Assembly: GCA_937858165.1 (NCBI GenBank)
Contig: CALLZA010000423.1
Span: 1 to 10,347 of the forward strand
Length of the DNA stretch: 10,347 nucleotides
Origin: an uncultured Ardenticatenia bacterium
Lineage (GTDB): Bacteria; Chloroflexota; Anaerolineae; Promineifilales; Promineifilaceae
Reading direction: 5' to 3'
Shown one piece after another: positions 150 to 10,280 of this stretch. Under the pieces are notes generated by a model that did not search any database, was not told where the DNA came from, and worked only from the letters and a program-made list of their open reading frames with translations. Numbering within the stretch: position 1 is the first letter of the stretch; every line of letters begins with the position of its first letter. Position numbers and translations under genes: made by a program.

Positions 150-215
150 CAAGCAGAAGGCGGCATACGAGATCTAGTACGGTCTCGTGGGCGCGGAGAT
201 GGGTATAAGAGACAG
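150..215. other. Illumina P7 end + i7 index + Nextera transposon end
   Basis: Positions 150-173 match the P7 flow-cell sequence with one mismatch. Positions 174-181 read CTAGTACG, the reverse complement of i7 index CGTACTAG, which I know as Nextera N702. Positions 182-215 match the Nextera read-2 transposon adapter ending in AGATGTGTATAAGAGACAG, with two T-to-G differences. Genomic sequence begins at 216. This is library contamination, not a biological mobile element, although the terminal 19 bases derive from the Tn5 mosaic end. Confidence 0.97.
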
Positions 216-1092
216 CCTGCCGATAGGCCATTACGTGGACGCCGGCCACACCGGGCATCTCGCGCACCTGCTGAATGATCTCGACGCAAATACGCTTGCC
301 CTCTTCGCGCTGCTTGCCCTTCGGCGCGCCGCGCAGCCGGGCAATGACCTCGTCGGGGATGTAGACGCCGGGCACTTTCGCGCGCATGAACTCGGCCGCC
401 TTCTCGCCCCGCAGCGGGCCGACGCCAACCAGGATGAACACCCGCTCGTGCAGCCCCAGGTCGCGCACTCGGCGCATAAACTCGGCCAGCCGCGGCACAT
501 CGAAGCAGTACTGCGTCTGGATGAACTCCGCCCCGGCTTCGACTTTCTTGGCCAGCCGCAGCGGCCGCCAGTCGTACGGCGGCGCAAACGGGTTCTCGGC
601 CGCGCCCAGGAAGAGGCGCGGTGGCGTAGTCAGCTTGCGCCCGCTGAGAAAGACGCCCTCGTCGCGCATGATGCGCGCCGTGCGCAAGAGCTGGATGGAG
701 TCAAAGTCGAAGACGCGCTTGGCCTCCGGCTGGTCGCCGTTGGTCACGTCGTCGCCGGTCAGGCACAGGACGTTGCTGACGCCCATCGCCGCCGCGCCCA
801 GCAGGTCGCCCTGGATGGCGATGCGGTTGCGGTCGCGGCAGGAGACCTGGAAGACGGGCGAGTAGCCGGCGCGGGTCAACAGGGCGCAGATGGCGACGCT
901 GGACATGTGGCAGTTGGCCCCACTGGCGTCGGTGGCGTTGATGGCATCGCAGACAGCGGCCAGCGTTACGGCCGCGTCATAGACCTCTTGGGGATCGGCG
1001 CTGTCGGGCGGGTTCAGCTCGGCCGTCACAGCAAAGCGGCCCGACCGCAACACCCGTTCGAGGCGGCTACCGGATTTGTATGTGATGTTCAT
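216..1092 (-). CDS. metF: Methylenetetrahydrofolate reductase, 3' end missing (partial)
   Basis: This gene encodes a TIM-barrel flavoprotein that reduces 5,10-methylene-THF to 5-methyl-THF, the methyl donor for methionine synthesis. About 292 residues are genomic. Visible family landmarks are AELNPP near residues 24-29 (the Glu corresponds by position to the catalytic Glu of E. coli MetF), LTGDD at 111-115 (flavin-contacting Asp) and IQTQYCFD at 191-198 (conserved TQ..FD folate-site motif). The start at 1092 gives the usual N-terminus. It overlaps the end of metV by 26 bases and has no clear Shine-Dalgarno, so translation is probably coupled to metV. The frame runs from genomic DNA straight into the Nextera adapter and acquires the false tail VSYTHLRAHET. 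MetF proteins are usually about 290-310 residues, so probably only a short C-terminal piece and the stop are missing. It is the last gene visible of the cluster. Confidence 0.93.
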
Positions 1093-1621
1093 GGCCGTTG
1101 CTCGAAGGGGTCGCCAGGCTGACGGGTTGGTTTAGCTTGACCTGTGACGGGACGCGCCGCCAGCCTTCGGGGTAGGTGGTGTCGGCCCCGGTCAGCATGT
1201 TGACCCAGGCCGAATCCCCTTGCAGGCGGTGGTTGACCGGCGGCTGAATCCACAGCATCTCGTCGCCGTAGTAGGCCATGCGCCCGGCGCGGTCGAACGC
1301 CTGCACCCAGACGCAGAAGCGGTCGGGGAAGACCTCACAGTGGCCGTTGGGGCGCACGCCGCCGCACGGGCCGTTGCGCAAGCTCTTGGGGCAGCTCATG
1401 GGGCAGGTCATGCCCGTGGAGTGGAGGATGCACTGGCCGCAACTGCGGCAGTCGAAAATGAGTTGTTTGGCCGGCTCCTCGAAGGGAACGAGCCAACGCT
1501 CGGCCCGCTCGTAGCCGACGCGGCGGATGAGTGGGGCGGCGCGGGTAAACAGGCGGTGGGTCAGGTCGTAGGCGCGCTCCAGCAGCCGGGGGTGGGCCTG
1601 CAACCAGCTACGCAGGGACAT
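1067..1621 (-). CDS. metV: MetV-like cysteine-rich partner of MetF (MTHFR C-terminal domain family)
   Basis: This 184-residue protein resembles the 'methylenetetrahydrofolate reductase C-terminal' family (PF12225), known as MetV where it forms a complex with MetF, for example in acetogens. The N-terminal 50 residues are helical and basic. The core holds eight cysteines at about 58, 61, 64, 73, 77, 86, 95 and 103, in CRSCGQC, CPMSCPK, GPCGG and GHC contexts, enough for a metal or Fe-S centre. The C-terminal half carries aromatic motifs such as AYYGDEMLW. AGGAG (1631-1635) lies 9 bases before the ATG and overlaps the stop codon of the preceding methyltransferase gene, and the 3' end overlaps metF by 26 bases. 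The three genes are therefore tightly coupled. The inferred role is to pass electrons to MetF or to stabilise it. No HdrA or RnfC-type partner is present in the window, so the electron donor is open. Confidence 0.85.
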   Translation of the reverse strand: MSLRSWLQAHPRLLERAYDLTHRLFTRAAPLIRRVGYERAERWLVPFEEPAKQLIFDCRSCGQCILHSTGMTCPMSCPKSLRNGPCGGVRPNGHCEVFPDRFCVWVQAFDRAGRMAYYGDEMLWIQPPVNHRLQGDSAWVNMLTGADTTYPEGWRRVPSQVKLNQPVSLATPSSNGHEHHIQIR

Positions 1622-1630
1622 TGGGTTTCG

Positions 1631-1635
1631 CTCCT
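1631..1635 (-). promoter_or_regulatory. Shine-Dalgarno of metV overlapping the upstream stop codon
   Basis: The minus-strand reading is AGGAG, 9 bases before the metV ATG. Its first two bases lie within the TAG stop of the homocysteine methyltransferase gene (1634-1636), a typical layout for translational coupling. Confidence 0.75.
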
Positions 1636-2629
1636 AGTTGCGGGGGCGGCGGTAGGTCCGCTCACGGGCGGTGGGTGGTTCGGCCGCGCTGTTGTCGTTG
1701 TTGGCGGCCATTTCGGCGACCAGTGCGGCGCGGTCGGCGTCGGAAAGGGGGGCGCGCAACGCCGCGGCGATGGCGGCGATGTGGTCGGGGCCGTTGCCGC
1801 AACAGCCGCCGATGAAGCAGGCCCCCAGGGCTCGCACGCGCTGGGCATAGCGGCCCATGATAGGTGGCGTGGCGTCGTAGATAAGTTCGTTGTTGCGCCA
1901 TTGGGGGATGCCGGCGTTGGCCTTGGCAATGAGGCGGACGTCCGGCGCGGCGCGGTGCATGGCGTCGATGACGCCCTCGATCTCGGCGATGCCGTTACCG
2001 CAGTTGCCGCCGACGGCCACCAAGCCCCACTCCTTCATGGTCCGCACGGCCTGGGCCGGGGTGACGCCCATCATCGTCCGGCCGTTGGTGTCGAAGCTCA
2101 TGGTAGCGGCGATGGGCAAGTCGGTGATCGAGCGCGCGCCCTCGACGGCCGCGCGCGCCTCCGCCAGATCGCTCATCGTCTCGACCCACAGCAGATCGAC
2201 ACCGCCGGCGGCCAGCCCGCGCACCTGCTCGGCAAAGGCGGCCCGCGCGTCGTCGAAGGTCATCGTGCCCATCGGGGCCAGCAGCTCGCCCGTTGGCCCC
2301 ATCGACCCGGCCACTAGGACGACCCGCTCGGCGGTGTCGGCCGCGGCGCGGGCGTTCTGGGCCGCGGCGCGGTTCAATTCGTAGACGCGGTCTTGCAGGT
2401 TGTGGAGCTTCAGCCGGTAGCGCGTGCCGCCGAAGGAGTTGGTCAGAATGATCTGCGAGCCTGAGTTGACATAATGTTGATGGACGGCACGGATGCGGTC
2501 GGCGTGGGATACGTTCCACTCCTCCGGCGGCGCGCCGGCCAGCAGCCCGGCGGCAAATAGCATCGTGCCCATCGCGCCGTCTAGGACGATGGGTTCGTTG
2601 GTGTCGAGGAGGTGTTGTAGCTTATTCAT
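1634..2629 (-). CDS. Homocysteine S-methyltransferase family protein (Bmt/MetH homocysteine-domain-like)
   Basis: This is a 331-residue zinc-dependent methyltransferase of the PF02574 family, which activates homocysteine as a zinc thiolate and methylates it to methionine. The N-terminus has LDGAMGTMLF (16-25). LTNSFGGTRYRLKLH (62-76) and SMGPTGELLAPMG (109-121) follow. The zinc ligands are Cys210 in GGNCGNG and Cys276/Cys277 in GGCCGNG. The sequence resembles proteins annotated as betaine-homocysteine methyltransferase (Bmt) in Alphaproteobacteria and the first domain of MetH. It has no B12, folate or SAM-activation domain. The separate corrinoid protein immediately upstream (71-base gap) suggests that it takes methyl from methyl-cobalamin, as the MetH module does, rather than from betaine. 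The start is fixed by a strong GGAGG. The last 25 residues are a polar, probably disordered tail. The exact methyl donor cannot be decided from sequence alone. Confidence 0.9.
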   Translation of the reverse strand: MNKLQHLLDTNEPIVLDGAMGTMLFAAGLLAGAPPEEWNVSHADRIRAVHQHYVNSGSQIILTNSFGGTRYRLKLHNLQDRVYELNRAAAQNARAAADTAERVVLVAGSMGPTGELLAPMGTMTFDDARAAFAEQVRGLAAGGVDLLWVETMSDLAEARAAVEGARSITDLPIAATMSFDTNGRTMMGVTPAQAVRTMKEWGLVAVGGNCGNGIAEIEGVIDAMHRAAPDVRLIAKANAGIPQWRNNELIYDATPPIMGRYAQRVRALGACFIGGCCGNGPDHIAAIAAALRAPLSDADRAALVAEMAANNDNSAAEPPTARERTYRRPRN

Positions 2630-2634
2630 AGATT

Positions 2635-2639
2635 CCTCC
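2635..2639 (-). promoter_or_regulatory. Strong Shine-Dalgarno of the homocysteine methyltransferase
   Basis: The minus-strand reading is GGAGG, 5 bases before the ATG at 2629. It confirms the start codon. A long hairpin (2647-2694) ends 7 bases upstream of it. Confidence 0.8.
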
Positions 2640-2646
2640 GAAACAA

Positions 2647-2694
2647 GGTTCCAGCTTCCAGGGGAATAGCGCTCTTCCCCTGGAACCTGGAACC
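2647..2694. repeat. Long inverted repeat between corrinoid-protein and methyltransferase genes
   Basis: Arms 2647-2666 and 2675-2694 are reverse complements at 19 of 20 positions around an 8-base loop containing AGCGCT. One more A-T pair extends the base of the stem. The minus-strand transcript of the first arm contains two adjacent copies of GGTTCCA. It lies just after the corrinoid-protein stop and before the methyltransferase Shine-Dalgarno. No clear U-run follows it, so an mRNA-stabilising or processing hairpin, or a dispersed palindromic repeat, is as likely as a terminator. Confidence 0.85.
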
Positions 2695-2700
2695 TGTGAC

Positions 2701-3402
2701 CTAGCCTCTTGTCTTCGCTTTCTGCCGCCGGATATACATGAACTTTTTGGCCGTCTCGACACCGACGGCCGCATCGCGGCAGTAGGCGTCGGCCCCAATC
2801 TCCTCGGCGAACGCCTCGTTGAGCGGCGCGCCGCCGACGAGCACGATGATGTCCTGGCGAATGCCGGCCTCTTTCAGAGCGTCGATAACCACGCGCATGT
2901 AGGGCATGGTCGTCGTCAGCAGGGCGCTCATGCCCAGGATGTCGGGCTTATGCTTCTCGATGGCGGCCATGAAGTTATCGACCGAGTTGTTGACGCCCAG
3001 GTCGATGACCTCGAAGCCGGCCCCTTCCATCATCATCCCGGTCAGGTTCTTGCCGATGTCGTGGATGTCGCCCTTGACCGTACCGACGACCATGGTGCCG
3101 ATCTTTTCCGCGCCCGTCTCGGCCAGCAGCGGCCGCAGGATGGCCATGCCCGCCTTCATCGCCTTGGCGGCCATGAGCACTTCGGGCACGAAAAGGATGC
3201 CGTCGCGGAAGTCGGCGCCGACGATGTCCATGCCGGCGACGAGGCCGGAGGTGAGGATGGTATACGGCTCGTGGCCGCGTTCGAGCATGACGTTGACTTC
3301 CTCGACGACCTCCTCAGCGTAGCCGTCGTAGAGGTCTTCCTTCATCAATTCATAGATCTCGTCGTCCGACATCGTTTGCAGGTCGATCTCTTCGTCACTC
3401 AT
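2701..3402 (-). CDS. Corrinoid (B12)-binding methyl-carrier protein
   Basis: This is a 233-residue two-domain cobalamin carrier, like the B12 modules of MetH, MtaC and MtbC. Residues about 10-95 form the helical cap (B12-binding_2) with GLVAGMDIVG and the conserved FVPEVLMAAKAMKAG. Residues about 100-225 form the Rossmann B12-binding domain with GTVKGDIHDIGKN (107-119), so Asp112, His114 and Gly117 give the D-x-H-x-x-G motif and His114 is the lower cobalt ligand. MSALLTTTM (158-166) and VGGAPLN (189-195) complete the cobalamin pocket. It shuttles the methyl group between a donor enzyme and, here, most likely the adjacent homocysteine methyltransferase. The RACo-like gene upstream would reactivate it when it oxidises to cob(II)alamin. 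A GGAAG about 10-12 bases before the ATG supports the start. The first 15 residues are acidic. The substrate-specific partner is inferred from context. Confidence 0.93.
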   Translation of the reverse strand: MSDEEIDLQTMSDDEIYELMKEDLYDGYAEEVVEEVNVMLERGHEPYTILTSGLVAGMDIVGADFRDGILFVPEVLMAAKAMKAGMAILRPLLAETGAEKIGTMVVGTVKGDIHDIGKNLTGMMMEGAGFEVIDLGVNNSVDNFMAAIEKHKPDILGMSALLTTTMPYMRVVIDALKEAGIRQDIIVLVGGAPLNEAFAEEIGADAYCRDAAVGVETAKKFMYIRRQKAKTRG

Positions 3403-3417
3403 GACACATACTCTTCC

Positions 3418-3525
3418 TGTAGCGCGGGTTGCTCTACCTACGCTCTTCCACCGTCACAGTTATAGCTGCGCGGGTTGCCTACCCGCGCTACAGCCGGATC
3501 GCGGGTAACCAAACCGCGCTATAGC
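3418..3525. repeat. Degenerate GC-rich repeat cluster with palindromic core
   Basis: An 11-base word, GCGCGGGTTGC, occurs at 3422-3432 and again at 3468-3478, each followed by similar CTACC..CGCT sequence. The second copy forms a perfect 8-bp stem (3468-3475 with 3481-3488) and continues to CTACAGC. A third fragment, CCGCGCTATAGC at 3514-3525, crosses the stop codon of the RACo-like gene. The parts fit degraded copies of a palindromic unit that begins TGTAGCGCGGGT. It fills most of the gap upstream of the corrinoid-protein gene, so it could also fold in that leader. Confidence 0.7.
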
Positions 3526-5576
3526 TTGCGCCCGCGGATGCGTTCGGCCCGGAGGGCGCGGCCGTTGGCCTTGTTGCCGTTGGCCGTGCGAGGTAAGGGC
3601 GTCGTCAGACGGCTCTCCAGATGGGGGAACGTGTCCGTGGCGTGCGGGATGTGAATCGCGCCGACGAACTCATCCTGGAAGTGTGGGTCAATGGCCGTCT
3701 CGACGTAGGTTACCCAGCGCGCCAGCTCGGCCGCCTCGGCCCGCTTATGCCGGTTCAGCAGGGCGATGCGCGCCCCGTCGCCGGCAGCGTTGCCCACAGC
3801 CGTCACCCGGTCGAGCGAGCAGTCGGGGATAAGGCCCAACAGCATAGCGTACTGCGGGTCGATGTAGCTGCCGAACGCCCCGGCCAGGGTGATCCGTTCG
3901 ACGCGCGCGACACCCAGGCGATTCATAAGCAGCTTCGCCCCGGCATAAAGCGCCGCCTTGGCCAACTGGATATTGCGCACGTCATCCTGCGTCACCAGAA
4001 TGGGCTGACCGTTGGCCGTCTGGTTGCCGGTCGCCAACACGTAGGCCCCGCGCTTGCCTTCCCAGACCACGCGCTCGTGCGGCCGGTCGGGGTCGAAGCG
4101 GCCGTCGCCACGGATGATGCCGGCTAGGAACATCTCGGCCACGACCTCAATGATGCCCGAACCACAGATGCCCGCCGCCAGGTGTTGCGGTTGGGCTTCC
4201 GGCGGCACGTCCGGCCCACTCGGCCAGGCGTCGGACCAACGATCCTCGCCGATGACGCGAAAGCGGGCCGCCCAGTTCTGCGGGTCGATGCGCACGCGCT
4301 CGATGGCCCCCGGCGCGGCGCGCATGCCGAAGCGAATCTGCGCCCCCTCGAACGCCGGGCCGGTGGGGCTGCTGGCGCTAAGCAGCCGTTGGCGGTTGCC
4401 CAGCACGATCTCGGCGTTGGTGCCGACGTCGACGAGCAGGGTTAGCTCATCCTGGCGGTGCGGCTCTTCGGCCAGCAGCACGCCGACGTTGTCCGCGCCG
4501 ACGTGCCCTGCTTCGGCCGGCAAGACGTGGACGTAGGCTCCCGGATGGAAGCGCAACTCCAACTCGCGGGCCTTCACGTCCACCGCATCGCGCGTGGCCA
4601 GGGCGAACGGGGCGCCGCCTAACTCCTGCGGGTTGATACCCAGCAGGATGTGGATCATCGTCGTATTGCCCACAAAAACAGCGTCGTGGATGTCGCGCAG
4701 TTGCTGCCCGGCGGCGCGGGCGGCGCGGGCGGCCAGCGCGTTGAGCGCCTCAATGACGGCCGCGTGCAGCTTGTCCAGCCCGCCGGGGTGGGTCGTGGCG
4801 TAGGAGACGCGGCTCATCAGGTCTTCGCCATACGTTACCTGTGGGTTCATCGCCGCCTCGGTCGCCAGCACGGCCCCGGTGCGGAGGTCGCATAGATGAC
4901 CGGCAATGGTCGTCGAGCCGATGTCAACGGCCAGGCCAAAAAGGCCCTCTTTATAGCCGGGCTGCACGTCGATTACTTCATGCTCGCCCCACAGAATGAT
5001 GGTGACGGCCCAGTTGCCCGCGCGCAGCGCCGGCTGGAGGCGGCGCAGGGCGGGCAGGTCAATGGTGAGGTTGGTCAGTTGCCACTGCGCGGCCAGCGCG
5101 GCTTGCAACCGGCCCCAGTCGCCGCGGTGCTCGCCCAACTCGGCCGGATCGACTTCAACGTAGAGCCGGCGCACGGCCGGGGCCACGTCGATGACGCGCG
5201 TCGTGGCCGACTTGCGGATAACTTGCTTGTGGGCGCGGCTCTCCTCCGGCACATAGACCAGTACGTCGCCGCGGACGTGGCTGGCGCAAGCGAGGCGATA
5301 CGCCCCGTCGCCGTCGGGCGCGGCAGCCAGCAGACCCGTCTCGCGGGCGTCGGGTGGGCTGACGTGGGCGGCGGCCGAGTCGATACCGTGTTTGGCGAAG
5401 CGGCCTTCTTCGATGCGAACGCGGCACTTGGCGCAGGTCAGACGGCCGCCGCAGATGCTTTCGATCGCCACGCCCAACTGGCGAGCGGTGTCGAGGAGTG
5501 TCTCGTTGGCTCGCGCCTGGCCGCGGCGGCCGGAGGGCATGAAGATGACGTGATGTTCGCCGTTGGCCGTAGCCAT
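3519..5576 (-). CDS. Corrinoid-protein reductive activase (RACo/RamA-like ferredoxin-ASKHA protein)
   Basis: This 685-residue protein matches the DUF4445/RACo architecture. Such proteins use ATP to drive reduction of inactive cob(II)alamin to cob(I)alamin in corrinoid methyl carriers. Residues about 1-110 are a [2Fe-2S] ferredoxin domain with Cys42, Cys48, Cys51 (C-x5-C-x2-C) and Cys97. A linker domain (about 115-210) follows. The ASKHA ATPase begins at GLAVDIGSTT (214-223) and contains VFVGNTTM (300-307), LVDVGTNAEIVLG (381-393), AAGICGSGIIEV (467-478) and TLAGAFGSYIDP (563-574), the usual nucleotide-binding landmarks. I chose the ATG at 5576, with a weak GGTGA upstream. An upstream in-frame extension to 5675 would run through a promoter-like sequence and lacks family similarity. 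The C-terminus ends in a basic, Asn/Gly-rich tail. The nearby corrinoid protein is the obvious client. RACo family assignment is firm; the client is inferred. Confidence 0.92.
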   Translation of the reverse strand: MATANGEHHVIFMPSGRRGQARANETLLDTARQLGVAIESICGGRLTCAKCRVRIEEGRFAKHGIDSAAAHVSPPDARETGLLAAAPDGDGAYRLACASHVRGDVLVYVPEESRAHKQVIRKSATTRVIDVAPAVRRLYVEVDPAELGEHRGDWGRLQAALAAQWQLTNLTIDLPALRRLQPALRAGNWAVTIILWGEHEVIDVQPGYKEGLFGLAVDIGSTTIAGHLCDLRTGAVLATEAAMNPQVTYGEDLMSRVSYATTHPGGLDKLHAAVIEALNALAARAARAAGQQLRDIHDAVFVGNTTMIHILLGINPQELGGAPFALATRDAVDVKARELELRFHPGAYVHVLPAEAGHVGADNVGVLLAEEPHRQDELTLLVDVGTNAEIVLGNRQRLLSASSPTGPAFEGAQIRFGMRAAPGAIERVRIDPQNWAARFRVIGEDRWSDAWPSGPDVPPEAQPQHLAAGICGSGIIEVVAEMFLAGIIRGDGRFDPDRPHERVVWEGKRGAYVLATGNQTANGQPILVTQDDVRNIQLAKAALYAGAKLLMNRLGVARVERITLAGAFGSYIDPQYAMLLGLIPDCSLDRVTAVGNAAGDGARIALLNRHKRAEAAELARWVTYVETAIDPHFQDEFVGAIHIPHATDTFPHLESRLTTPLPRTANGNKANGRALRAERIRGRKL

Positions 5577-5641
5577 GTCAATTTCACCGGGCAGAGGCAC
5601 GCCGCAGGGGGGCGCACAGACAGCATCCAGAAGTTTAAGGG

Positions 5642-5670
5642 ATTCTAGCACGCCGGGGCACGTGCTCCAA
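5642..5670 (-). promoter_or_regulatory. Possible sigma-70-type promoter for the RACo-like gene
   Basis: On the minus strand, TTGGAG (5665-5670) and TAGAAT (5642-5647) are separated by 17 bases. The -10 matches consensus at five of six positions and the -35 at three. It lies about 65 bases before the chosen ATG and after the repeat remnants. It would let the corrinoid part of the cluster be transcribed separately from the upstream genes. Confidence 0.35.
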
Positions 5671-5682
5671 AGCAAGAGAGGG

Positions 5683-5775
5683 AACCACAGATTTCACAGA
5701 TTAAGAGCAAGAGCCTCACGCCAGGATCGTCAGGGGCGCCAAAAACGCCAAGAACCAACTTTTCATTCTGTGGTT
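5683..5775. repeat. Composite repeat remnant with inverted ends
   Basis: AACCACAGATTTCACAGATT (5683-5702) is a single-arm, shortened copy of the palindrome at 9487-9554. The opposite end, TCTGTGGTT (5767-5775), is the reverse complement of its first nine bases. Between them, 5736-5754 matches 17 of 19 bases of the unrelated hairpin arm at 6138-6156. The right end runs into the last codons of the small gene ending at 5763. It looks like pieces of two repeat families joined together. Confidence 0.65.
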
Positions 5776-6074
5776 TCTATCTTCTGACGAATCGCCGCCG
5801 CGACGGCGCGTGTGTCGAGGGTGGGGTGGCGTGCCTCCAGCTCGGCGGCCACGGCCGCGGCGACCTCGGCCGGGGAGCCGTCGCGCTCCTGCGCCTCGCC
5901 CCAGACGAAGCCGGACAGGTAGCCGTCAGTGCCGGTTAGCCCGGCAGACATGGCGGCGCTATCGACGGCTTCCTGGAAGCGTGGCGGCAGTTCGATGCTG
6001 GCGCGGTCGCGGCGGCCGCCGGCGCGGACTTGAACGGGGATGCCGTGCCAATAGAGGATTTGGTAAGATGTCAT
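5763..6074 (-). CDS. Small 'virulence factor' family protein (PF13769-like), function unknown
   Basis: This 103-residue protein begins MTSYQILYWHGIPVQVRAG, then has RRDRASIELPPRFQEAVDSAA and GYLSGFVWGEAQERDGSPAEVA. I recognise this pattern as PF13769, a small family labelled 'virulence factor' in databases without a demonstrated activity. It is soluble, with no signal peptide or membrane segment. The conserved block is residues 1-80, and the last 20 residues form an Ala-rich helix. As I recall, relatives in Alphaproteobacteria often sit beside corrinoid methyltransferase, MetF and RACo genes, and this neighbourhood fits. That argues for a role in one-carbon or cobalamin metabolism rather than virulence, but the activity is unknown. 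The start at 6074 matches the family N-terminus although no good Shine-Dalgarno precedes it. An upstream ATG at 6134 adds 20 unconserved residues overlapping a hairpin repeat. The final codons (Thr-Thr-Glu) fall in repeat-like sequence. Confidence 0.8.
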   Translation of the reverse strand: MTSYQILYWHGIPVQVRAGGRRDRASIELPPRFQEAVDSAAMSAGLTGTDGYLSGFVWGEAQERDGSPAEVAAAVAAELEARHPTLDTRAVAAAIRQKIETTE

Positions 6075-6130
6075 AGTCGGCTGTTCGTAGTGCGTGGCCT
6101 CGCTCTTATCAGCTGGGAGAAGAACCTCAT

Positions 6131-6188
6131 GCAAAGAGCGCCAAGAACGCCAAGAGAAAACTCTCCTGGCGTTATTGGCGCTCTTTGC
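6131..6188. repeat. Long inverted repeat (27-bp arms) between oxidase and small gene
   Basis: Arms 6131-6157 and 6162-6188 are reverse complements at 25 of 27 positions around a 4-base loop. The arm begins GCAAAGAGCGC, a word also starting the hairpin at 7539. It lies 38 bases after the oxidase stop on the minus strand and could end that transcript, but no U-run follows. CGCCAAGAACGCCAAG within the left arm recurs in modified form at 5738-5753. Confidence 0.88.
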
Positions 6189-6226
6189 GCCCTTGGCGGG
6201 AGATCTTCTGCCTCAATCGACCTCTG

Positions 6227-7495
6227 TCATTGGCGTACATGCGGTTGGCCCAACGCGCCGCCCGGCACTTCGCGCGGCATATCGCCGCGATAGAGCGGGT
6301 GCCGCGGGTTGTGGACTAGAAGATCCCCTTGCGGTTCATGACCGAGGCTGGCCTGTTCAGTGAAGCGGGCCAGTTTGAACAGGCTGATATCGTGGCGCGT
6401 GGCCCGGCGCTCGACCAGGTCGGCCATAATCTCGCCGACGACACTGGCGAACTTGTAGCCGTGGCCGGAGAAGCCGGCGGCAAACGACACCTGCGGATGG
6501 TCGGGGTGCAGGTCGATCAGAAAGTGACGGTCGGGCGTGTTGGTGAACAAGCACGCCTTGAGGATCATCGTCGGCCCGGCGCCGTCGGGGAAGTAACGCT
6601 CGGCGAAGTCGCGCAACACGGCTTCGTCTTCGCGGAACGCCTCGCGCGAGAGATACTCTGCCTCGCCCGACTCCTCAAAATGGTGATAGCGACCGAACTT
6701 GAAGCCCGGCACAGCAAAGACGGGGAAGCCGTAGTAGCGCCCCTCCGGCACCAGACAGTTGAAGACGGGGAAGCGTTCGGGCCGGAACAGTTCCGGCCGC
6801 GCCGGCTGGAACCAGCCCAACACCTGTCGCTCCGGCACAGCCAGACCGCGCAACACGGGCAACACGTTCTGGTTCCAGCCGCCGGCGGTGAAGACTAGGG
6901 TGTCGGCGGTGTACTCGTCGCGGTCGGTGAAGACGCGCACCCGGTCACCCCACGGCTGCCAGTCGAGCAGCGCCTCGCGGCCATGAATATCCGCCCCCAG
7001 GGCGTGGGCGGCCTCGACGTAAGCCACCGTGCCCCGCTCTGGCCGCAGGAAGCCACCGTCGGGTTGAAAGACGGCCAGGTCTTCGGGCGGCAGGTGGTAG
7101 GCGGGGTAGCGCTGGCTGACTTGCGCCCCGGTCAGGACCTCATGGGGCAGATCGTGTTCGACGCACGACTGGAGCGACCCGTTAAAGACGTGGCTGTCGG
7201 CCGGGCCGCAGTCGAGCGAACCGGTGCGGTAGAACAACTGCTCGCCGGCCATGCGTTCGATTTCGGCCCACAACTCGTACGCGCGCCGCAGCAGGACGAC
7301 GTAGGAGGGGTGCTCGTAGTAGGCCAGGCGGATGATCCGCGTGTAGCCGTGGGACGAGCCGAGGTCGTGGGGGATGTCGAATCGTTCGATGCCGAGGACG
7401 CGCTTGTTGCGCCGCGCCAACTGATAGCAGGTGGCGCTGCCCATCGCGCCGACGCCGATGACGATAGTGTCATAGTGCTTGCTAAGTGCGCTCAT
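6227..7495 (-). CDS. FAD-dependent N-methyl amino acid oxidase (sarcosine / N-methyltryptophan oxidase family)
   Basis: This 422-residue flavoprotein belongs to the DAO superfamily, MSOX/SolA branch, which oxidises N-methyl amines using O2 and gives formaldehyde, hydrogen peroxide and the demethylated amino acid. The dinucleotide-binding GVGAMG is at 14-19, followed by the acidic residue of IERFD. GSSHGYTRIIRLAYYEHP (46-63) is typical of the family. Cys315 in KACLFTNTPDRHF matches the covalent flavin Cys315 of monomeric sarcosine oxidase in context and number. Lys266 in GFKFG is a candidate for the oxygen-activating lysine. GFSGHGYKFA (341-350) is the C-terminal FAD contact. The last 40 residues are an extra tail rich in Gly, Pro and Arg. 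A GAGG lies 6 bases before the ATG. The true substrate (sarcosine, N-methyltryptophan, pipecolate or another amine) cannot be read from sequence. Its position beside fhs suggests that it feeds C1 units to folate. Confidence 0.88.
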   Translation of the reverse strand: MSALSKHYDTIVIGVGAMGSATCYQLARRNKRVLGIERFDIPHDLGSSHGYTRIIRLAYYEHPSYVVLLRRAYELWAEIERMAGEQLFYRTGSLDCGPADSHVFNGSLQSCVEHDLPHEVLTGAQVSQRYPAYHLPPEDLAVFQPDGGFLRPERGTVAYVEAAHALGADIHGREALLDWQPWGDRVRVFTDRDEYTADTLVFTAGGWNQNVLPVLRGLAVPERQVLGWFQPARPELFRPERFPVFNCLVPEGRYYGFPVFAVPGFKFGRYHHFEESGEAEYLSREAFREDEAVLRDFAERYFPDGAGPTMILKACLFTNTPDRHFLIDLHPDHPQVSFAAGFSGHGYKFASVVGEIMADLVERRATRHDISLFKLARFTEQASLGHEPQGDLLVHNPRHPLYRGDMPREVPGGALGQPHVRQ

Positions 7496-7538
7496 GGGTT
7501 GCCTCGCCTGGCCACTTCACGCGAAGCGCCAGAAAGAC

Positions 7539-7586
7539 GCAAAGAGCGCAATTAACCCTGGGAACAGGGTTGATTGCGCCCTTTGC
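7539..7586. repeat. Inverted repeat / possible terminator after fhs
   Basis: Arms 7539-7560 and 7565-7586 pair at 20 of 22 positions around a GGAA loop. It starts 12 bases beyond the fhs stop on the minus strand. In the transcript one mismatch becomes a G-U wobble. Only a weak T-rich stretch (GTCTTTCTGG) follows, so termination is possible but not certain. Confidence 0.82.
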
Positions 7587-7598
7587 CACTGTTTTGTT

Positions 7599-9380
<1,782 letters not shown>

Positions 9381-9385
9381 TGGTT

Positions 9386-9390
9386 CTCCT
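9386..9390 (-). promoter_or_regulatory. Shine-Dalgarno of fhs
   Basis: The minus-strand reading is AGGAG, 5 bases before ATG 9380. This decides for this start over the upstream ATG at 9458. Confidence 0.82.
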
Positions 9391-9446
9391 AAAGGTGGTG
9401 TCGGCCGCGGCAGAGGGCAGGCGGACGACGGGGAATCGACGCGGGC

Positions 9447-9474
9447 ATTGTATCGCAATCACCAACGCCCGCAA
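9447..9474 (-). promoter_or_regulatory. Possible sigma-70-type promoter for fhs
   Basis: On the minus strand, TTGCGG (9469-9474) and TACAAT (9447-9452) are 16 bases apart. The -10 matches consensus at five of six positions; the -35 only at three. It lies between the palindrome and the fhs start, giving a leader of about 60 bases. The upstream alternative start codon would fall inside it. Confidence 0.35.
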
Positions 9475-9486
9475 GTTCGGAGGAGA

Positions 9487-9554
9487 AACCACAGATTACA
9501 CAGATTTCACAGATTACAGATCAAAAATCTGTGAAATCTGTGTAATCTGTGGTT
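9487..9554. repeat. Perfect 29-bp inverted repeat between korC and fhs
   Basis: Arms 9487-9515 and 9526-9554 are exact reverse complements around a 10-base loop. Each arm is itself built of repeated CACAGATT / CACAGATTT units. It is AT-rich compared with its surroundings. It starts 11 bases after the korC stop on the minus strand, and the transcript then reads TCTCCTCC, a weak pyrimidine tract. It could act as a terminator, but its internal repetition and the related fragment at 5683-5702 point to a dispersed repeat family. Confidence 0.93.
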
Positions 9555-9565
9555 ACTCTCTTCCG

Positions 9566-10114
9566 TTAAGCGCGGGCGGGCAGGCCGACGGCGTGGCCGT
9601 GGCGCAAGACCTGGAGGTTGGCCTCGATGAGGTGTTGCTTGTTGGCCGGCAGGTGGGCGGCCAGGGCCGCAGCGACGACCTCCAGCGGTAACACCGGCCG
9701 CCCGGCCAGCAGCGCACCGACAGCGGCCATGTTGAGCATCTTGGGCGTGCCCCACTCCTCGGCGATGGCGTTGGCGCCCACGTAGATGACGTCGATGTCG
9801 TCGCGGTGGGATTCGGACGCCACCAGCGAGCTATTGACAACCAGCAGCCCGCCCGGTTTCACCAGGGGTTCGTACTTGTCATAGGACGGCAGATTGAGGA
9901 CGACGGCCACGTCGGGTTGGGCGACGATGGGCGCGCCGATCTCGTCGTCGCCGATGATCACGGTGCAGTGGGCCGTGCCGCCGCGCATCTCCGGGCCATA
10001 GGAGGGGATCCACGACACGAATCGCCCGGCGTCCATGCCGGCATAAGCGAGCAGTTGACCGGCAAACAGCGCGCCCTGGCCGCCGAAGCCGGAGATGATG
10101 ATCGAACTTTCCAT
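9566..10114 (-). CDS. korC: 2-oxoacid:ferredoxin oxidoreductase, gamma subunit (KorC-like)
   Basis: This 182-residue protein belongs to the POR/KOR gamma family (PF01558). With thiamine-pyrophosphate alpha/beta subunits it interconverts a 2-oxoacid plus CoA and acyl-CoA plus CO2, using ferredoxin. ISGFGGQGALFAGQLLA (7-23) and IPSYGPEMRGGTAHCTV (36-52) are the signature segments. LNLPSYDKYEPLVKPGG and ALLAGRPVLPLE follow. The SYGPEMRGG form is typical of the 2-oxoglutarate type, but pyruvate and other 2-oxoacid enzymes share it, so the substrate is unproven. The sequence AGGAAAC upstream of ATG 10114 provides a ribosome binding site. The catalytic alpha and beta subunits are not in the window; they would be expected upstream in transcription, beyond 10210. 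It is complete at both ends. Confidence 0.88.
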   Translation of the reverse strand: MESSIIISGFGGQGALFAGQLLAYAGMDAGRFVSWIPSYGPEMRGGTAHCTVIIGDDEIGAPIVAQPDVAVVLNLPSYDKYEPLVKPGGLLVVNSSLVASESHRDDIDVIYVGANAIAEEWGTPKMLNMAAVGALLAGRPVLPLEVVAAALAAHLPANKQHLIEANLQVLRHGHAVGLPARA

Positions 10115-10146
10115 AGTTAAAGTTTCCTGTGGTTCGTAGTAGAGGA

Positions 10147-10188
10147 TTTGTCGCGCTCTTCTCTCTGTAGGCTAAAGAGCGCGACAAA
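10147..10188. repeat. Inverted repeat upstream of korC
   Basis: Arms 10147-10160 and 10175-10188 are perfect 14-bp reverse complements around a 14-base loop. AAAGAGCGC within the right arm recurs in the hairpins at 6131 and 7539. It occupies most of the 96 genomic bases before korC and could be a terminator of the preceding gene or another member of the same repeat family. Confidence 0.8.
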
Positions 10189-10210
10189 GCGCTTTACGAC
10201 GAACTTAGGC

Positions 10211-10280
10211 CTGTCTCTTATACACATCTGACGCTGCCGACGAGCGATCTAGTGTAGATCTCGGTGGTCGCCGTCTCATT
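10211..10280. other. Nextera transposon end + i5 index + Illumina P5 end
   Basis: Positions 10211-10243 match the reverse complement of the Nextera read-1 adapter exactly. Positions 10244-10251 read GCGATCTA, the reverse complement of i5 index TAGATCGC, which I know as S501/N501. Positions 10252-10280 match the reverse complement of P5 with one mismatch. Genomic sequence ends at 10210. Confidence 0.97.

Follow-up and report, generated by a model that had tools for sequence, protein, structure and literature searches.

Genes of the locus and the contig ends

The window, meaning the whole stretch of 10,347 nucleotides that was analysed, derives from an uncultured Ardenticatenia bacterium of the phylum Chloroflexota. 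Its central genes are all encoded on the minus strand in the order RACo/RamA-type activase, corrinoid protein, homocysteine S-methyltransferase (HcyMT), MetV and MetF (Table 1). Open reading frames and Pfam matches thus bear out the sequence-only reading, which had placed separate HcyMT, corrinoid and activase genes directly upstream of metV-metF. Adapter sequence is present at both ends of the contig; the native DNA therefore extends from approximately position 216 to 10210, and MetF breaks off near codon 292. Searches for tRNAs and Rfam elements within the window gave no hits.

Table 1. Features of the window, in order of position
Feature	Position	Strand	Evidence or remark
Illumina P7/Nextera adapter, artefact	150..215 (pieces 150-173, 182-215)	+	
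MetF, 3' end missing	216..1092	-	PF02219; cut by adapter, which runs from 215 down
MetV	1067..1621	-	PF12225; eight Cys
Homocysteine S-methyltransferase (HcyMT), MtgE/Bmt-like	1634..2629	-	PF02574, 246 bits; NCBIfam NF005718
Free-standing corrinoid (B12-binding) protein, MtgC-like	2701..3402	-	PF02607 + PF02310
RACo/RamA-type corrinoid reductive activase	3519..5576 (ATG at 5576)	-	Fer2 + RACo linker, middle and C-terminal domains
Small PF13769 protein, upstream of RACo	5763..6074	-	PF13769
Monomeric sarcosine oxidase/N-methyltryptophan oxidase-like FAD enzyme	6227..7495	-	PF01266
Formate-tetrahydrofolate ligase	7599..9380	-	PF01268, 849 bits
2-oxoacid:ferredoxin oxidoreductase gamma subunit	9566..10114	-	PF01558
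Nextera/P5 adapter, artefact	10211..10280 (pieces 10211-10243, 10252-10280)	-	

The possibility of a chimeric window was rejected on three grounds. The gap between the HcyMT and MetV genes is 12 bp, and 6 bp in a relative's locus (L051); MetF is 81-82% identical to the proteins of four relatives, which are themselves 79-85% identical to each other; and the GC content is 0.62-0.69 all along the window. Among the flanking genes, the one for the PF13769 protein is present in 13 of 19 RACo loci, the window included. The FAD enzyme scores above the cut-off of the NCBIfam model for N-methyl-L-tryptophan oxidase (PRK11259), whereas its closest structures are those of monomeric sarcosine oxidase (1e-83, versus 1.6e-53 for N-methyltryptophan oxidase).

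The three core proteins and known systems

The domains of the activase and its match to structure 3zyy (1.3e-103) identify it as the RamA/RACo type that occurs in MtgBCDE and split synthase modules. Its Cys42/48/51/97 motif is intact, and its best NCBIfam match is AcsV at 420 bits, under the cut-off of 800. The corrinoid protein has an intact DxHxxG motif at 112 and is 67-71% identical to rhizobial proteins from MtgBCDE-type loci, which carry close homologues of all the modules of that system. This identity and its Pfam domains place it with the stand-alone corrinoid proteins of the MtgC kind, although its best NCBIfam match (NF047996 MtgC, 209.7 bits) is below the curated cut-off of 370, as is true of the homologue from Sinorhizobium psoraleae. 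HcyMT scores 372.7 bits on NF005718, above the cut-off of 338, and is accordingly of the stand-alone Bmt/MtgE kind. Its NCG (at 209) and GGCC (at 274) motifs are intact, and the zinc-type cysteines C210, C276 and C277 are invariant among 12 aligned sequences. PF02574 is its sole Pfam match, with no sign of the MetE-type catalytic domain by which the folate-independent core synthases MesA-D are described (PMC7857596).

Classical MetH fuses homocysteine, pterin, B12 and activation domains, whereas the genes in the window are separate. The sequence-only reading had pointed to a three-part split methionine synthase with a RamA-like activase in Phaeobacter inhibens, and at the family level this was right: the published account has a PF02574 protein, a B12 protein and a DUF4445/ferredoxin activase as separate genes (PMC5764234). 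P. inhibens is stated to lack MetH (PMC12478193), in contrast to the genome bin of the window, and the window shows no pterin gene. The MtgBCDE system of Ruegeria pomeroyi and Sinorhizobium, as presented in PMC12478193, is built of the same modules, and MtgC, MtgE, the RamA-type activase, the MttB-family MtgB and the pterin protein MtgD all occur in the taxonomic order to which the window belongs. Unlike that system as presented, the window module includes metV-metF, neither MtgB nor MtgD is in the window, MetH is also in the bin, and DUF1638 lies near only some Chloroflexota trios. The MtgABC system of Desulfitobacterium hafniense has in common an MttB-type enzyme, a corrinoid protein and a THF acceptor enzyme; the part of its description used here (PMC7154762) contains no homocysteine arm, and the window protein falls under the MtgC model cut-offs. 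Judged from sequence, the trio resembles the published MtgC/MtgE/RamA module, which serves as a split methionine synthase and in the demethylation of glycine betaine, and it belongs to this already known kind.

It is also conceivable that HcyMT alone is a betaine- or DMSP-homocysteine methyltransferase, while the corrinoid protein and activase separately serve MttB demethylation. In vitro, the P. inhibens protein Bmt is reported to use betaine and DMSP in forming methionine, with no cobalamin or THF added (PMC12366255), and 13 of 32 relatives' loci lack a corrinoid gene in the stretch that encodes HcyMT. However, HcyMT is closer to the MetH structure 1q7m (1e-46) than to the betaine enzyme BHMT (1lt7, 3.5e-18), the homologues from S. 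meliloti and other species are stated to be without betaine-binding residues (PMC12478193), and the order RACo-corrinoid protein-HcyMT recurs in 18 of the 32 loci. We regard this arrangement as unlikely.

MetV-MetF and the pterin subunit

Methylene-THF reductases of the MetF-MetV type are recognized by neighbouring PF02219 and PF12225 genes. This is the arrangement in the window, with MetF incomplete. In all 12 other loci with a similar metF, five of them from one genus, it is followed by a gene for an MtgD-like pterin methyltransferase (MeTr); a coaBC gene also occurs in this region in relatives. The earlier proposal that there is no pterin subunit therefore could not be read from the window, where the contig is cut within metF, but it does seem to hold for the rest of the genus. 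Neither the bin (79% complete) nor seven other genomes of the genus yielded a stand-alone PF00809 methyltransferase or MtgD at E <= 1e-3. In all eight, PF00809 is confined to folP-type and MetH-type genes, including in the genomes G033 (99% complete), G039 (98%) and G036 (97%). Within the genus, MetV is found only in the window's genome, and MetV-MetF is absent from the other seven. The folate-binding part may thus sit past the adapter-cut contig end, though the closest relatives appear to be without it. The locus had also been viewed as a split synthase to which MetFV was added in a distant lineage. The family of modules is indeed the same, but the addition is not specific to this lineage, as two Rhodoferax MAGs carry MetV-MetF-MeTr-RACo.

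Methyl donors and the relation to MetH

A complete MetH with its activation domain is encoded on another contig of the bin (C854), and the bin also carries a HcyMT-MetF fusion. Consequently, the trio is not the only possible methionine synthase of this genome, and its candidacy as the sole one was rejected. There are four PF06253 (MttB-family) matches in the bin. One of these proteins (on C246) is closest to structures 4yyc, 9yce (glycine betaine methyltransferase) and 2qne. The window itself has no MttB gene, and within the genus MttB either sits on a different contig or is widely separated from the trio. In the 79% complete bin, the window protein is the only free-standing corrinoid protein of the methyltransferase type; a third B12-cap protein was rejected as a further methyl carrier because it is a MerR-type regulator. 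The presence of MetH, four MttB-family matches and a single such corrinoid protein makes a role in demethylation likely. The sequence-only reading had named a complete MetH or MetE together with an MttB/MtaB-type partner for the corrinoid protein as grounds for such a catabolic role, and most of this was found, with the putative pairing reached by elimination.

Across the order, genomes with a match of at least 75% identity were counted as carriers of the corrinoid protein. MttB is present in 33 of 33 carriers, versus 11 of the other 23 genomes. MetH is missing from 17 of the 19 carriers that also have MtgD (present in 2/19), but present in 13 of the 14 that do not; seven of these 14 have a divergent MeTr homologue (29-31%). 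This suggests that the trio replaces MetH only in company with MtgD. Without MtgD, it may supply homocysteine with methyl groups taken from MttB-type donors. A dedicated folate-dependent split methionine synthase with little catabolic role, as first proposed from the window, would agree with the modules of the P. inhibens synthase (PMC5764234) and with the MetH-less genomes. Nevertheless, the complete MetH of the bin and the MttB genes of every carrier render it very improbable.

Gene content, gene order, intact motifs and co-occurrence are best explained by a Chloroflexota MtgC-MtgE-RamA module in which an MttB-loaded corrinoid protein delivers methyl groups to homocysteine, with MetF-MetV and a probable MtgD forming a link to THF (probability about 0.6). 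An MttB-family enzyme encoded elsewhere, for which the glycine-betaine-methyltransferase-like protein on C246 is the best candidate, would methylate the Co(I) corrinoid protein. HcyMT would then transfer the methyl group to homocysteine to yield methionine, this direction of flow being predicted, and the activase would return oxidized corrinoid to the reduced state. MetF-MetV, probably with an MtgD-like gene just beyond the contig end, would connect the methyl group to tetrahydrofolate, and formate-THF ligase and the sarcosine-oxidase-like enzyme could act in later C1 and N-demethylation steps. Two relatives' loci (L051 and L049) unite MttB, demethylating FAD/GcvT enzymes, the trio, MetV, MetF and MeTr in a single cluster. 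Counting against this explanation are the lack of MttB in the window, the lack of MtgD in the bin and the seven other genomes, and the MetH of the bin, which sets it apart from 17 of 19 MtgD-bearing carriers.

Perhaps the module has no MtgD at all, and the trio passes methyl groups from MttB through the corrinoid protein to homocysteine while MetF-MetV serve MetH or the folate pool. The restriction of PF00809 noted above fits this rather doubtful alternative, as does the retention of the trio in six of the seven other genus genomes, with dN/dS of approximately 0.08-0.25 in the four compared, and the presence of MttB in all genomes of the genus. It fits poorly with the presence of MetV-MetF in the window, alone in the genus, and with the 12 of 12 loci in which a metF of this kind precedes MeTr. 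Moreover, the pterin search in the genus was by PF00809, and a GcvT-like THF-domain protein near MttB_B in six genomes could accept methyl groups for folate. A tentative extension is that the trio of the genus is folate-free: MttB-type enzymes would load betaine-like methyl groups onto one shared corrinoid protein for transfer to homocysteine, a B12-dependent route from betaine to methionine beside MetH, and gain or loss of the MetV-MetF-MtgD block would switch the trio between this role and that of a full synthase that permits loss of MetH.

These findings place an MtgBCDE-type methyl hub, which the papers cited here describe mainly from Pseudomonadota, in an order of Chloroflexota whose members are for the most part uncultured. 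The distribution of MetH and MtgD provides a genome-level test of when the split system replaces MetH, and one MtgD-less genus gives an indication of a possible folate-free route.

Gene content and affiliation of the locus

The sequence-only reading had proposed a split methionine-synthase-like system, with separate homocysteine methyltransferase (HcyMT), corrinoid and RACo/RamA-type activase proteins encoded upstream of metV-metF, and both this gene order and the domains were confirmed in the window (Table). Catalytic signatures are intact, and neither tRNAs nor Rfam families were found in the window. With its HcyMT, corrinoid-protein and activase genes, hereafter the trio, the locus belongs to the MtgC/MtgE/RamA kind. 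The FAD enzyme encoded nearby scores above the NCBIfam cut-off for N-methyl-L-tryptophan oxidase, but its closest solved structures are monomeric sarcosine oxidases.

Table. Features of the window, with loci of relatives (L numbers) given for two of the associated proteins
Feature	Position	Strand	Loci of relatives
POR gamma	10114-9566	minus	
FTHFS	9380-7599	minus	
Sarcosine-oxidase-like FAD enzyme	7495-6227	minus	
Small PF13769 protein, upstream of RACo	6074-5763	minus	L039-L044, L049, L050, L052, L053, L055, L059
RACo/RamA-type activase	5576-3519	minus	
Corrinoid protein	3402-2701	minus	
HcyMT	2629-1634	minus	
MetV	1621-1067	minus	
Truncated MetF	1092-216	minus	
P7/Nextera adapter	150-173, 182-215		
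Nextera/P5 adapter	10211-10243, 10252-10280		
GcvT-like protein after one MttB type in the window's genus			L105, L108, L111, L112, L113, L119

A three-part methionine synthase with RamA-like and DUF1638 proteins, the latter a reactivation partner, is described for P. inhibens in PMC5764234. At other loci (L060, L065 and L134) DUF1638 lies close to the trio, and a PF13769 ('Virulence_fact') protein is found upstream of RACo in 13 of the 19 RACo loci examined, including the window. The PF13769 protein may help reactivate the corrinoid as an alternative accessory to DUF1638.

PMC12478193 reports MtgBCDE from Ruegeria, with colocalisation in rhizobia; the string 'Chloroflex' does not occur in its main text. 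Among the papers listed for these systems together with Chloroflexi or Chloroflexota, none concerned such a module in Chloroflexota by title and opening of the abstract; PMC11264602 mentions both MtgB and Chloroflexota. In PMC12366255, Bmt converts betaine and DMSP to methionine in vitro, which is in conflict with the view, in PMC12478193, that such homologues are without the betaine-binding residues. Other papers treat MtgA, a THF methyltransferase that shares no sequence identity with earlier structures (PMC7154762), and MesA-D (PMC7857596).

Genome contigs were scanned once with 12 aligned HcyMT sequences. Of 590 confirmed matches the best 80 were retained, and these span Chloroflexota, Acidimicrobiia, Alpha-, Beta- and Gammaproteobacteria and further groups. 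Many of the 80 stretches showed none of the other reference genes. Rhizobial loci, among them L170, L180, L190 and L195, place HcyMT near MttB, a corrinoid protein, DUF1638, the pterin methyltransferase MeTr and RACo, which is the arrangement given for S. meliloti in PMC12478193. The corrinoid proteins of these rhizobial loci are 67-71% identical to that of the window.

The adapter cut and the pterin methyltransferase gene

Both contig ends of the window are artificial, and the final ~30 residues of the MetF ORF are translated adapter. The position of the 'missing' pterin subunit coincides exactly with this cut. Adapter-like translations also occur in ORFs at L089 and L071 on other contigs of the bin (C246 and C647), and truncated genes there should therefore be read with care.

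There are 13 loci whose MetF is at least 55% identical to that of the window, the window being one. In all 12 others, an MtgD-like MeTr is the next matched gene after MetF, on the same strand and 114-348 bp on, although these loci are not independent (genus g22 contributes five, g7 two, and g2, g3 and g11 one each, with the other two in Rhodoferax MAGs). The MeTr of L059 matches PF00809 and scores 346.6 bits with NF005719, for which the cut-off is 259. The two Rhodoferax loci (L161 and L197, Betaproteobacteria) read MetV-MetF-MeTr-RACo, and in L161 DUF1638 and the corrinoid gene lie upstream of this block. The MetFV insertion is therefore not confined to one phylum.

With the window cut inside metF, after which relatives carry MeTr, a pterin-subunit gene may lie just beyond the contig end. 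The claim that the system has no pterin subunit stands better for the window's genus (g1), in which PF00809 is confined to folP-type and MetH-type genes in all eight genomes.

MetH and MttB in the bin and its genus

The bin (G000; 1043 contigs totalling 4.45 Mb, with completeness of 79.4% and contamination of 5.9%) holds a complete MetH on contig C854, with homocysteine, pterin, B12 and activation domains all present. Its only other PF00809 occurrence is a folP-type gene (our own assignment; a folK-like ORF lies beside it), and none is a stand-alone MtgD-type gene. Three proteins of the bin match PF02574: MetH, the window HcyMT and an HcyMT-MetF fusion of 626 aa. Three also match PF02607: MetH, the window corrinoid protein and a MerR-type regulator.

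There are four occurrences of MttB (PF06253), on C246, C67, C781 and C858. The C246 copy is cut at its N-terminus and the C858 copy is an N-terminal fragment; the two could be one and the same gene. For the C246 protein, 4yyc (9e-98), 2qne (6e-92) and the glycine betaine methyltransferase 9yce (5e-92) are all better matches than the trimethylamine methyltransferase 7xcl (3.5e-36). Beside it lie a DAO-type oxidase fragment and an ORF resembling, by eye, a relative's creatininase. Trimethylamine enzymes and betaine enzymes match the C67 protein about equally well. Because the other PF02607 proteins are only MetH and the regulator, the window corrinoid protein is left, by elimination within an incomplete bin, as the sole partner visible for the MttB proteins. 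Of the combination said to point to catabolic demethylation, MetH and MttB are present, the pairing being one by elimination.

Elsewhere in g1, the trio is found in six of the seven other genomes (not in G035, 68% complete), with dN/dS of ~0.08-0.25 in the four g1 genomes compared, and MttB is present in 8/8. No stand-alone MeTr homologue was found in the eight genomes, not even of a divergent kind (29-31% identity), and MetV occurs only in the bin (1/8). Two states of the window's strain were weighed, with and without MtgD: MetV-MetF in the window speaks for its presence, whereas the genus and the bin's MetH speak against it. In six g1 genomes, one MttB gene has a gene for a GcvT-like protein with a THF domain close by; the one copy of this protein compared with NCBIfam best matches trimethylamine N-oxide demethylase, in its C-terminal part. 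This protein may be a THF-linked acceptor, and its location counts against a strictly folate-free reading.

Co-occurrence in the order and the source of methyl groups

By hand count, split HcyMT (at least 45% identity) is present in at least 38 of the 56 genomes of the order, the bin included. Among 32 HcyMT loci compared from the other 37 genomes, RACo, corrinoid protein and HcyMT stand together in 18, a contig edge truncates one, and the remaining 13 show HcyMT but no corrinoid gene in the stretch. HcyMT directly adjoins MttB in three genomes (G029, G027 and G040). Two loci are, by gene content, betaine-type catabolic clusters: L051 (MttB, DAO-GcvT protein, Etf-like proteins, RACo, corrinoid protein, HcyMT, MetV, MetF, MeTr) and L049 (MttB end, GcvT, oxidase, DAO-GcvT-like protein, PF13769, trio, MetV, MetF, MeTr, FTHFS). 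MttB was not seen within the stretch in most other trio loci examined.

Presence sets compiled by hand for the 56 genomes place the corrinoid protein (at least 75% identity) in 33, including G044 via a partial match. MttB is present in all 33 versus 11 of the 23 without it. MtgD-like MeTr (at least 60% identity) is found in 19 of the 33, only two of which (G001 and G012) have MetH, whereas the 14 genomes lacking MtgD keep MetH in 13 cases, counting a 701-aa partial MetH in G036; the exception, G037, is 71% complete. Each of the two tests gives a Fisher p of ~2e-6, uncorrected for kinship. Per genus, MtgD occurs without MetH in eight and MetH without MtgD in four.

Together, the trio and MtgD thus seem capable of replacing MetH. 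Where MtgD is absent, MetH is kept and the trio most likely passes methyl groups from MttB-type donors to homocysteine. A folate-free reading is made slightly less probable by the divergent stand-alone MeTr homologue in seven of the 14 'MtgD-less' genomes (G002-G006, G031 and G043). This homologue shares its contig with a longer PF12225 (MetV-domain) protein of ~490-515 aa, a few kilobases away at most, and might serve folate transfer. We tentatively assign little more than one chance in four to the proposal that the trio of g1 is folate-free, and that gain or loss of MetV-MetF-MtgD would switch it to or from a full methionine synthase.
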